Positions 26,810 to 56,715 of a DNA stretch of 64,000 bases are shown in pieces; the first letter of the stretch is position 1; each line of letters opens with the position of its first letter. The notes beneath the pieces are model-generated. The model was not told the DNA's origin. It ran no database searches and saw only the letters and a list, made by a program, of their open reading frames with translations. Source of the stretch: Lachnospiraceae bacterium (lineage in GTDB: Bacteria; Bacillota; Clostridia; Lachnospirales; Lachnospiraceae); contig JAAUZV010000007.1 in the NCBI GenBank assembly GCA_014804425.1, forward strand, positions 65,969-129,968, in the 5' to 3' direction. A program made the position numbers and the translations under genes.

Positions 26810-28111
26810 ATGAAACTTAAAAAAGTGATTTTATCGGTGCTTGCCGTATCAATGTTATTGACTGGCTGTGCGAAAGAGGCGGAGACGGAACCGTCCCAGA
26901 GCGAAAATTTACCGCCGGTAGAGACAGAGGAAACGGATGCAAGCCCGGAAACCGATACATATGAAGGCGATACGGATGCAAGCAATATAGATGAAACCGG
27001 AACAGATGAAAGCAATACAGATGAAACCGGAACAGATGAAACCGATACAGATGAAACCAGAACGTATGAAGCGGAAGAACAGTATGTAAAGATGCTGGGG
27101 CGCACACACAATGAGAACGGTGTTCTGTGGCTGGCGCATTCCGCAAGCGGTGTGGAATTTACGGTAAAAGGAACGCAATGCTCCGTGAAAATCGTCGGTG
27201 ACAGTATGACCGGCGCAGAAGGCAGTCAGGCTCGTTTTGTCGCCTATGTGGACGGTGAGCGTGTCCTGGACGAGATGATAACTCAAAGAGAGGCTGTATA
27301 TGAAATTTTTTCATTCGAGACGGAAAAGGAAGTAACCGTAACGCTGGTGAAGGTATCCGAGGCAGCGAACTCCATTCTCGGTATCGACGAAATCATCGTT
27401 GCCGCCGCAGATCAAATCGCTCCTACGGCGGAAAAGAATTTGAAGATTGAATTTATAGGAGACTCGATAACCTGCGGATACGGCGTTGATGACGAAGACA
27501 GAGATCACCATTTCTCCACCAATACCGAGGATGCCACAAGAGCCTATGCCTATAAGACCGCGCAGCTTCTGGATGTTGATTACAGCCTTGTCTCTTACAG
27601 CGGAAACGGAATTATTTCCGGCTACACCACACAGGGAGTGATAGTGCCGGAGCAGCAGCTTTCAAAAAAATATGAATGTTTTGCGGTAAGTTACGGCAAC
27701 GGCGCGGGCGGATTTAAGGCATCAAGTATCGACTGGGATTTTTCAAGATTTACCCCGGATATCGTAGTTATCAATCTCGGTACAAATGACTATTCTTATA
27801 CGGGCAATGATGAAGAGCTGATCGGTGAGTACATAGAAGCCTATACGGAATTCATCAAGCAGGTTCGCCAAAATAACGCGAACTCGCATATCATATGTAC
27901 CCTCGGAATTATGGGGGCGGAGCTGTACGATGCGATATGCACGGCCGCAGAGAATTACACCGCCGAAACGGGCGATGAGAATATTTCCGTATTCCGTCTT
28001 TCCACCCAGAACGGTTCTACGGGATACGCCGCTGATTGGCATCCCACTGCGGCTACCCATGATATAGCAGCCGCAGAACTGGCAGATTATATCATCGCTC
28101 TGGGTTTCTAA
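26810..28111 (+). CDS. SGNH/GDSL esterase lipoprotein, carbohydrate esterase family 2-like
   Basis: Lipobox LLTGC; jelly-roll N-domain; IEFIGDSITCGYGV block I, VINLGTNDYSY block, DWHPTAATH block V. SD ggagga; start 26810. Confidence 0.85.
   Translation: MKLKKVILSVLAVSMLLTGCAKEAETEPSQSENLPPVETEETDASPETDTYEGDTDASNIDETGTDESNTDETGTDETDTDETRTYEAEEQYVKMLGRTHNENGVLWLAHSASGVEFTVKGTQCSVKIVGDSMTGAEGSQARFVAYVDGERVLDEMITQREAVYEIFSFETEKEVTVTLVKVSEAANSILGIDEIIVAAADQIAPTAEKNLKIEFIGDSITCGYGVDDEDRDHHFSTNTEDATRAYAYKTAQLLDVDYSLVSYSGNGIISGYTTQGVIVPEQQLSKKYECFAVSYGNGAGGFKASSIDWDFSRFTPDIVVINLGTNDYSYTGNDEELIGEYIEAYTEFIKQVRQNNANSHIICTLGIMGAELYDAICTAAENYTAETGDENISVFRLSTQNGSTGYAADWHPTAATHDIAAAELADYIIALGF
26985..27065 (+). 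repeat. 15-bp degenerate repeat (acagatgaaaccgga type) encoding a Thr/Asp/Glu-rich linker
   Basis: NIDETGTDESNTDETGTDETDTDETRTYE encoded by near-identical 15/30-bp units. Confidence 0.75.
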
Positions 28112-54350: not shown

Positions 54351-54718
54351 GATGTTTCTCCCCCGTTTCCACGTAAATTCCTATCACATCTGTTGATTCT
54401 ATCCCGTCAAATCCTGCTCTGTTCTGTCATTACGTTTACTTTATCACAGTTCCTTATCCGCTGCAAAATCTTTTTCGGTTTCACATCGTATTCCCCGGTC
54501 TTACCGACATTTGCATTCTGCCGTTCTGAACGCAATTCCTATGGTTAAGATTTCTTTCTTGATCACAATCCGTCTACCCTTTCTCCCAACTACCAGTTGA
54601 TTTTATGTCAGTTTTACATTCTGCGGTTGAATTTTCCAAATATATCTCTCTTTTATACAACTCACATTTGTGTTATGGTAAAAGAAGATTTTCCATACCA
54701 CAACAGGGAGGGCAAAGC

Positions 54719-55615
54719 ATGGATCAGAATTTTAGCGCAAATCTGCGCAGACTCCGCAAACAAAAAGGCTTGACTCAGGAACAACTCGCTGACGCAGTCG
54801 GTGTGTCCGCACAGGCAGTCAGTAAGTGGGAACAAAATGGGTTTCCCGATACGCCGCTTTTACCTGCTATCGCAGACAGCCTCGACGCATCGATTGATGC
54901 GCTGTTCGGACGCGAGCAAGAAGGCGTTCCCGATATTTTTGATCAAGTGTTACAATACCTTTTATCATTTCCAAAGGAAGATCAAATTCATCAAGCATTC
55001 GATTTATGCTGGGTTATTTGCGAAATGATGTTTGGTTCGCCCCATCATGATCCGCTTGAAAAATATCATGTTGACGCAGACAACAATGCCCGATATGCAC
55101 AAACGACACTGGAAAACGGATTTTTGCAGGCAAAATTGAATCGCACCCAGCAATATTTTCTTCTGATGCCGGAGCCGGAGAGCGGCTATGATGAGCTCCT
55201 TTCCTATTCCGAGCGCTATGTGCAGTTTTTCTCAGTCCTTGCATCCCCTGATACGCTGCGGGCAATGTATTTTCTTCTCGAAAGCAATGCTCCTTCCGCT
55301 CCGCTGGATCTTTTTTTTACAAAACAGACGCTTGCGCACGCTCTTTCTATTGATGATGCGCATGCACAACAAATCATCGAACAGCTTTTATCCGTTTCCC
55401 TGATTGCAAAGGCATCACTTGATACCGGGTTAAAACAAGAATCTATTTATACTTATATCCCCAATTGTACCTTCATCGCTTTTTTGACTTTTACGTACAC
55501 ACTTTTGAACACTCCTAATTATTATTGTCTACAGGCGAACCATCGGCCCAATCCCTTTTTCCGCAATGCGACTTATCGGAATACTTCCGGTGCAGAGAAA
55601 AAGGACAGCAATTGA
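54719..55615 (+). CDS. XRE family transcriptional regulator with unassigned C-terminal domain
   Basis: FSANLRRLRKQKGLTQEQLADAVGVSAQAVSKWEQNGFPDTPLLPAIADSLDASIDALFG. Confidence 0.88.
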   Translation: MDQNFSANLRRLRKQKGLTQEQLADAVGVSAQAVSKWEQNGFPDTPLLPAIADSLDASIDALFGREQEGVPDIFDQVLQYLLSFPKEDQIHQAFDLCWVICEMMFGSPHHDPLEKYHVDADNNARYAQTTLENGFLQAKLNRTQQYFLLMPEPESGYDELLSYSERYVQFFSVLASPDTLRAMYFLLESNAPSAPLDLFFTKQTLAHALSIDDAHAQQIIEQLLSVSLIAKASLDTGLKQESIYTYIPNCTFIAFLTFTYTLLNTPNYYCLQANHRPNPFFRNATYRNTSGAEKKDSN

Positions 55616-55711
55616 ACGGTTTTTTGACATCAACCAACAGTTGATATGCGGTTTTTTTGAAATTCAACCAATGTTATATGGACGGTATCTGACACTTCAT
55701 GCTAGGCTAAA

Positions 55712-55757
55712 AAAGAACGCAAAGCGTTCTTTCGAAGAATCGCTTACGCGATTCTTC
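55712..55757. repeat. Two adjacent perfect hairpins
   Basis: AAAGAACGC-aaa-GCGTTCTTT (55712-55732) and GAAGAATCGC-ttac-GCGATTCTTC (55734-55757). Confidence 0.85.
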
Positions 55758-55827
55758 TGGGACTACACATTTCCTATAGGAATAAGAACGTATTGTAAAC
55801 ATGCTCATTCACACACAGGAGGCAGTC

Positions 55828-56715
55828 ATGAAAGAAACCTTCAGCAATAATTTGAAACAATTCCGTAAACAAAAACAACTCAGTCAGGAACAGCTTGCCG
55901 AACAGCTCGGGATCACCACACAGGCAGTCAGCAAGTGGGAATGCAGTCTGTCCTATCCTGATATTGACCTGCTGCCGCAGCTCGCTGACCTATTCGGCGT
56001 CTCCATCGACACATTATTAAGAGGCGACGCTGCATGCGCCGGAACGACCGACAGCACGACAGATCACACCGCCGGAGCCGATCAGCCGGGCGGAACGAAC
56101 GACGCGGCGGGCGGTTCTGCTGCCGAAGAGAGCACTCCCTCCCCGCAGCCCAATCTTCCCGATGACGATGTTCTGCGCATCGTACAATACCGCGGAAAGA
56201 CACTGTTGCGAAAGGATACTTATGATCCGCACATCCGCATCCCACTGTCACTGACCTGCGAACCAAAAACCAAAAAATTTTTCCATAATAAATCATTCGT
56301 TTTTATCTCTGATTCGAACACAGCCACTGCGCCGGTCGAAATATGGGGAAGCGCCGATATTTTCGGCGACCTCAACGGTCCCGCCAACATCGGCGCGTCC
56401 GTAACCTGTTCCGGTGACATCAACGGCACCGTTAACACGGGGATGAACGTACAATGCTCCGGCGATATCAACGGTCCCACCAATGCGGGAAGGAACATCA
56501 CCTGCGACGGCGACATTAACGGCGACGCCGCTGCGGGCGGTGATCTTACCTGCAACGGTGACATTAATGGTGATGCTTCCGCAGATGCCGGTCTTTCCTG
56601 CGGCGGTGACATTACCGGTGATGTCTCTGCAGGCGGCAACATTTTCTGCGACGGCGATATTACCGGCGATGTCTCTGCAGGCGGCAGTATCACCTGCAAT
56701 GGTGACATTTCATAA
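55828..56715 (+). CDS. XRE/HTH protein fused to a bactofilin-like/beta-solenoid repeat domain
   Basis: HTH FSNNLKQFRKQKQLSQEQLAEQLGITTQAVSKWECSLSYPDIDLLPQLADLFGVSIDTLL; low-complexity linker; C-terminal 16-aa repeats (V/I/L)xC(S/D/N/G)GDI(N/T)G.... SD aggagg. Confidence 0.9.
   Translation: MKETFSNNLKQFRKQKQLSQEQLAEQLGITTQAVSKWECSLSYPDIDLLPQLADLFGVSIDTLLRGDAACAGTTDSTTDHTAGADQPGGTNDAAGGSAAEESTPSPQPNLPDDDVLRIVQYRGKTLLRKDTYDPHIRIPLSLTCEPKTKKFFHNKSFVFISDSNTATAPVEIWGSADIFGDLNGPANIGASVTCSGDINGTVNTGMNVQCSGDINGPTNAGRNITCDGDINGDAAAGGDLTCNGDINGDASADAGLSCGGDITGDVSAGGNIFCDGDITGDVSAGGSITCNGDIS
56401..56712 (+). repeat. 48-bp tandem repeat, 6.5 copies, encoding 16-aa solenoid units
   Basis: Units start at 56401, 56449, 56497, 56545, 56593, 56641, 56689; exact 48-bp register. 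Confidence 0.95.

Follow-up and report, generated by a model that had tools for sequence, protein, structure and literature searches.

Repressors of the XRE class usually dimerise by means of a partner domain that is either helical or peptidase-like. In MinC, by comparison, dimerisation is brought about by a β-helix located behind a flexible linker (PMC6771821), and bactofilins assemble into filaments via tail-to-tail contacts (PMC12448750). In Myxococcus, bactofilins are reported to help organise ParABS chromosome segregation (PMC5703909), and C. acetobutylicum co-expresses, at a ratio of 1:1, the DNA-binding autorepressor Cap0037 and the bactofilin-like protein Cap0036 (PMC5050335).

Within the window (the whole stretch of 64,000 nucleotides of Lachnospiraceae DNA analysed here), a single gene combines the two kinds of part. 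Its ribosome-binding site, AGGAGG, lies 5 bases 5′ of the ATG, and the encoded protein comprises, in this order, an XRE helix-turn-helix (HTH), a disordered linker, a conserved cap segment, a Cys-less rung and seven V-x-C rungs. The features of the gene and its leader are as follows.

55629-55645, no strand assigned: candidate operator, a perfect 17-bp palindrome (ATCAAC-N5-GTTGAT) within the conserved leader
55654-55671, + strand: second, diverged TTTTTTGACATCAACCAA element (78% identity to 55620-55637; 34-bp spacing)
55710-55760, + strand: small inverted repeats of the 5′ leader that may form stem-loops, including I3 (55734-55743/55748-55757, 10/10 complementary)
55828-56715, + strand: HTH-solenoid gene, an ORF of 295 aa
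55828-56025, + strand: XRE/Cro-C1 helix-turn-helix, residues 1-66, from the HTH_3 match
56026-56160, + strand: Ala/Thr/Gly/Asp-rich flexible linker, residues 67-111, from AlphaFold2 pLDDT and codon changes
56161-56352, + strand: conserved cap segment, residues 112-175, with the motif DDxxLR(I/V)VxxxGxxLL ... VEIWGS
56353-56400, + strand: rung 0 (ADIFGDLNGPANIGAS), residues 176-191, with Ile at the Cys position, from the sequence and modelled within the solenoid
56401-56712, + strand: seven 16-aa V-x-C rungs, the seventh incomplete, from the sequence and AlphaFold2

A sequence-only reading of this DNA had proposed an XRE HTH of about 65 aa, followed by exact 48-bp/16-aa repeats with one in-register Cys per unit. 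Pfam bears out the former, as HTH_3 (PF01381) covers residues 9-63 (E=3.5e-13; 49.8 bits vs. a cut-off of 23), and the cysteine register holds as well: Cys 194, 210, 226, 242, 258, 274 and 290 (codon starts at 56407, 56455, 56503, 56551, 56599, 56647 and 56695; n=7) are spaced by exactly 16 aa. By simple arithmetic, the chance of seven Cys falling in one phase is ~(1/16)^6 = 6e-8, and the 16-aa repeat is far beyond chance. In an independent detection, Tandem Repeats Finder called a 48-bp unit at 56494-56686 with 73% matches and 0 indels; the repeats are thus exact in length and register, but not in sequence, the copies being 73% alike. The chain terminates mid-rung, with ITCNGDIS. NCBIfam returned HTH-type families only for this protein, every one below its cut-off, and inspection of the translation by eye revealed no hydrophobic stretch and no N-terminal membrane-targeting peptide, the N-terminus being the HTH. 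Elsewhere in the window, a 439-aa protein that, judged by eye, resembles a GDSL/SGNH-type esterase has a lipoprotein-like signal followed by an acidic, Thr-rich linker, which is encoded by a 15-bp tandem repeat (26948-27070).

AlphaFold2 run with three sequences modelled residues 211-295 at a pLDDT of about 89-95 and residues 66-168 (linker and cap segment) below 50. As a fold search with the full-length model placed HTH matches on top and retrieved no solenoid, the solenoid was modelled alone (residues 169-295, single sequence), yielding a mean pLDDT of 94.9, a pTM of 0.86 and three strands per rung. Structure prediction, which had been suggested as a check on the sequence-only reading, hence returned a regular solenoid with confidence. 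A search of solved structures with this model gave no match reaching an E of 0.001, and the best-supported one was the MinC C-terminal domain (PDB 4v02; rmsd 1.3 Å over 51 columns, probability 0.99, E=0.41). BacA (2n3d) and the Thermus bactofilin (6rib) superposed poorly (rmsd 7-10 Å). Left-handed hexapeptide folds (LpxD, GlmU, YrdA) were rejected at an rmsd of about 10-12 Å; ice-binding proteins appeared in the fold-search list, with poor superposition. From the 1.3 Å match to a right-handed β-helix and the poor fit of the left-handed hexapeptide folds, we infer that the modelled solenoid is right-handed. The module profile had zero sequence matches among PDB chains.

At the family level, Pfam scored the protein at 29.0 bits for Bactofilin (PF04519 / IPR007607; cut-off 27.9), rising to 33.1 for the solenoid alone, while scores for the FapA β-solenoid (PF03961; 14.4 bits, 22.4 for the solenoid alone, vs. 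31) and the MinC C-terminal domain (PF03775; 9.4 bits, 13.9 for the solenoid alone, vs. 33.2) stayed below the cut-offs. As a control, the reversed solenoid still obtained 22.5 bits for Bactofilin and shuffled or rung-permuted versions scored nothing, which indicates that much of the score derives from the near-palindromic G-D-I-x-G pattern. Profile-profile comparison matched clostridial bactofilins with 95-96% probability, and the same genome carries two canonical bactofilin genes. Bactofilins are typically defined by a right-handed triangular β-helix of about 110 aa, by non-polar filaments that form independently of nucleotides and, often though not always, by a membrane-targeting peptide at the N-terminus. 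What stands of the proposed bactofilin-like β-solenoid is the architecture (an HTH joined to a regular solenoid) and the resemblance to bactofilins; strict membership is weakened by the reversed control, by distant HTH-fused relatives that fall below the Pfam cut-off, and by MinC rather than BacA being the best structure. The protein can be described as bactofilin-like, its membership in Bactofilin proper being unproven.

To characterise the rungs, residue frequencies were collected by position over 93 rungs from 16 proteins (Clostridia, and plasmids and phages of Bacilli). Polar or charged residues accounted for 0-3% at rung positions 1, 3, 6, 10 and 12 vs. 46-83% at positions 2, 5, 7, 9 and 11; given the low polarity of the former group, each of the three faces reads V-x-small (V-x-C, V-x-G and V-x-A). 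Position 1 was V, I or L in 90/93 rungs. Position 3, polar or charged in 3%, was Cys in 80/93, followed by Ile (5), with non-Cys residues mostly in the first and last rungs. Within one β-strand, positions 1 and 3 face the same side. The Cys residues are most likely buried packing residues that form an inward ladder, a placement we infer from the sequence pattern and the strand positions. Cys positions are kept in orthologues and distant relatives, a conservation that the sequence-only reading had named as a check. Its further suggestion of a redox- or metal-sensing ladder is disfavoured, since the pattern puts Cys on the inward, buried face, where it swaps with Ile or Val.

About a dozen HTH-solenoid proteins were found, in three clostridial families, and in the sampled genomes they are rare and patchy: 9/396 family genomes, the genome studied here included, had a strong match (E below 1e-15), and 2 further HTH-type relatives were found among 288 sampled genomes of the class. 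Two sister loci of uncultured Lachnospiraceae are 86 and 84% identical and carry one and two additional 16-aa units. Distant HTH-fused relatives reside in Lachnospiraceae (L037, L010, L052, L053, L054 and L055, plus the fragment L056) and in two other families of Clostridia (L072, and L073, in which the frame of the HTH appears disrupted). The V-x-C rung, of 15 or 16 aa, is retained down to about 35% identity, and the chains of relatives stop with the last rung or shortly beyond it, without a visible C-terminal cap. Inspection of the gene neighbourhoods of distant relatives revealed no recurring neighbour; in G130, a repeat-rich segment containing a run of N (L119:2333-2944) adjoins the L055 HTH-solenoid gene. 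Against the two sister species, residues 1-71 showed 7-9 synonymous and 0 non-synonymous codon differences, arguing for strong purifying selection on DNA recognition. The linker bears many non-synonymous changes among species, and the rungs change more quickly than the HTH, with a dN/dS of about 0.24 vs. 0.

The cap motif (DDxLR(I/V)VxxxGxxLL...) is common to HTH-fused and non-HTH relatives. Together with V-x-C rungs, it also ends the non-HTH module proteins of other Firmicutes (L041, L042, L043 and L074), which differ from the window protein in their few rungs and in an N-terminal part made of a bactofilin-like portion and a SHOCT-like helix (weak Pfam hits). A tree of the module split into two well-supported halves, one wholly HTH and one mixed; it prefers two changes for the HTH fusion, with a single one not rejected (p-AU 0.21). 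Near one non-HTH module protein, L042:2032-3165 encodes another kind of HTH-solenoid fusion, in which an XRE HTH is joined to DUF2807 (GSGDI repeats, E=9.5e-13).

Rungs are further shared with short phage and plasmid proteins of phrog_3163 (E=7.3e-7; profile-profile 99%), found in Bacillus phages CM1 and BM15, Brevibacillus phage Sundance and Paenibacillus plasmids. These have the same AGGSVxC rung, with one Cys per 15 aa, yet the match is limited to positions 51-120 of 121, leaving out the N-terminal part; at about 110-130 aa, they lack an HTH and begin with another N-terminal part. Short Cys-per-rung solenoids of Bacillus/Brevibacillus phages and Paenibacillus plasmids were located at L111:2917-3249, L112:1926-2249 and L113:1860-2246, one of them directly behind a DnaB-like helicase gene. 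For one short phage/plasmid solenoid, the annotation as 'leukotoxin LktA-like' was unsupported by the families matched. A scan of viral contigs gave essentially HTH matches only.

Upstream of the gene, positions 55620-55715 are strongly conserved in three species, and the leader sequence is unique within the genome. The arms of the palindrome are identical in the three species while adjacent bases vary, and the second TTTTTTGACATCAACCAA element is conserved in L039 and L040. Allowing for up to 2 mismatches, a genome-wide count gave 36 palindrome-like sites vs. 11 for a control pattern, wherever they lay relative to genes. Binding to palindromes of this kind, with repression of the own gene, is common among XRE proteins; autoregulation is thus the likeliest use of the leader palindrome. 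The XRE regulator is probably autoregulatory, and would bind DNA at its own leader. An upstream gene (54605-55615) encodes another XRE HTH protein, whose C-terminal part is of a different kind; it is present in L039 and absent in L040, where the leader is still conserved. For the leader hairpins (55708-55770), a stem can still be drawn by eye as the sequence changes among the three species, and they could be RNA or DNA elements.

The best explanation, to which we assign a probability of roughly one half, is a solenoid-joined XRE regulator. It would be a stand-alone, single-gene DNA-binding regulator of the XRE type whose C-terminal part is a short, three-faced, right-handed β-solenoid instead of a ligand pocket, capped N-terminally and open C-terminally. 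Since relatives show no visible C-terminal cap, the exposed last strand would offer a natural joining edge, and copies may associate tail to tail via their exposed last rungs and perhaps stack further, similar to the way in which β-helices serve MinC and bactofilins. The flexible linkers would then bring at least two HTH domains to operators that are paired or palindromic, that of the own leader first. The per-rung Cys, at the position that takes a small residue on its face, would act as a buried ladder packing the core.

Other roles of the solenoid have to be weighed against this. Bactofilins make filaments (PMC12448750) and are reported to aid ParABS segregation in Myxococcus (PMC5703909), so a bactofilin-type filament former could be read from the Pfam score barely above cut-off, the 95-96% profile-profile match and the two canonical bactofilin genes in the same genome. 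We nevertheless consider it unlikely in view of the 22.5 bits of the reversed solenoid, the distant HTH-fused relatives below the cut-off, the poor fit of the BacA and Thermus structures (rmsd 7-10 Å) and the absence of a visible membrane-targeting peptide; moreover, the N-terminal cap segment and linker could hinder head-to-head joining. Rather improbable, too, is a transcription factor that would polymerise in the manner of a cytoskeletal protein: solenoids stacked end to end into filaments would gather many operators, the number of rungs would tune spacing and the Cys ladder would set stability. Likewise doubtful is a sensing or docking role, in which a partner protein (e.g. related phage or host solenoids) would bind the faces of the solenoid and titrate the repressor: positions 2, 5, 7, 9 and 11 are variable without an obvious conserved patch and no partner gene is adjacent, even though related short solenoids exist in phages and plasmids and the Cap0037 autorepressor is co-expressed 1:1 with bactofilin-like Cap0036 in C. 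acetobutylicum (PMC5050335).

The gain and loss of whole rungs between sister species, which argues against a fixed docking surface, would suit a passive spacer or stability tag left over from repeat expansion, as would the faster evolution of the rungs compared to the HTH (dN/dS about 0.24 vs. 0). However, a ratio of this size is still far below 1, and the core positions hardly change even among relatives of about 35% identity from several families, making a passive role very unlikely. Low odds also attach to a redox or metal switch, whereby thiol oxidation or metal loading of the Cys ladder would alter assembly and hence DNA binding. While Cys in 80/93 rungs at position 3 is a stronger preference than simple packing seemingly needs, the position belongs to the buried face, Ile or Val replaces Cys in end rungs, Cys is also kept in the short phage and plasmid solenoids devoid of a DNA-binding part, and a one-Cys-per-repeat ladder has a structural precedent in the leucine-rich repeat 'cysteine ladder' of InlJ, to judge by the title cited in PMC3196904.

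A literature search found no paper on an HTH-bactofilin fusion in the library covered, and the small HTH-solenoid family is apparently undescribed; the finding is genuine, but recombines known parts. In the solenoid-joined regulator, a growable bactofilin/MinC-type β-solenoid, its length shifting by whole rungs between sister species, would replace the usual partner domain. This would link DNA-binding regulators to polymer-forming folds and offer a naturally tunable spacer, as well as a clean test case for why one solenoid group keeps Cys in nearly every rung.

Compared to known systems, the window protein shares with bactofilins a β-solenoid of short Gly/Asp-rich rungs, flexible flanks and the marginal Pfam match, and differs from them by its very regular rungs of 15-16 aa, the V-x-C face, the N-terminal cap motif and the HTH, by having no membrane peptide seen, and by a reversed sequence that keeps much of the score. 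Cap0037/Cap0036 likewise place a DNA-binding autorepressor alongside a bactofilin-like protein (PMC5050335), but as two separate genes, with a different HTH and no Cys-ladder fusion described. InlJ, as far as the cited title conveys, has a Cys ladder along a solenoid in common with the window protein, yet it is a Listeria virulence factor with an LRR fold. MinC has no HTH and no Cys ladder, works with the partner MinD, and defines a family (PF03775) whose cut-off lies above the score of the window protein; over about 3 rungs, however, it is the nearest solved fold, and it similarly arranges a functional N-terminal domain, a flexible linker and a C-terminal β-helix, the latter being a dimerisation domain, as is proposed here for the solenoid.
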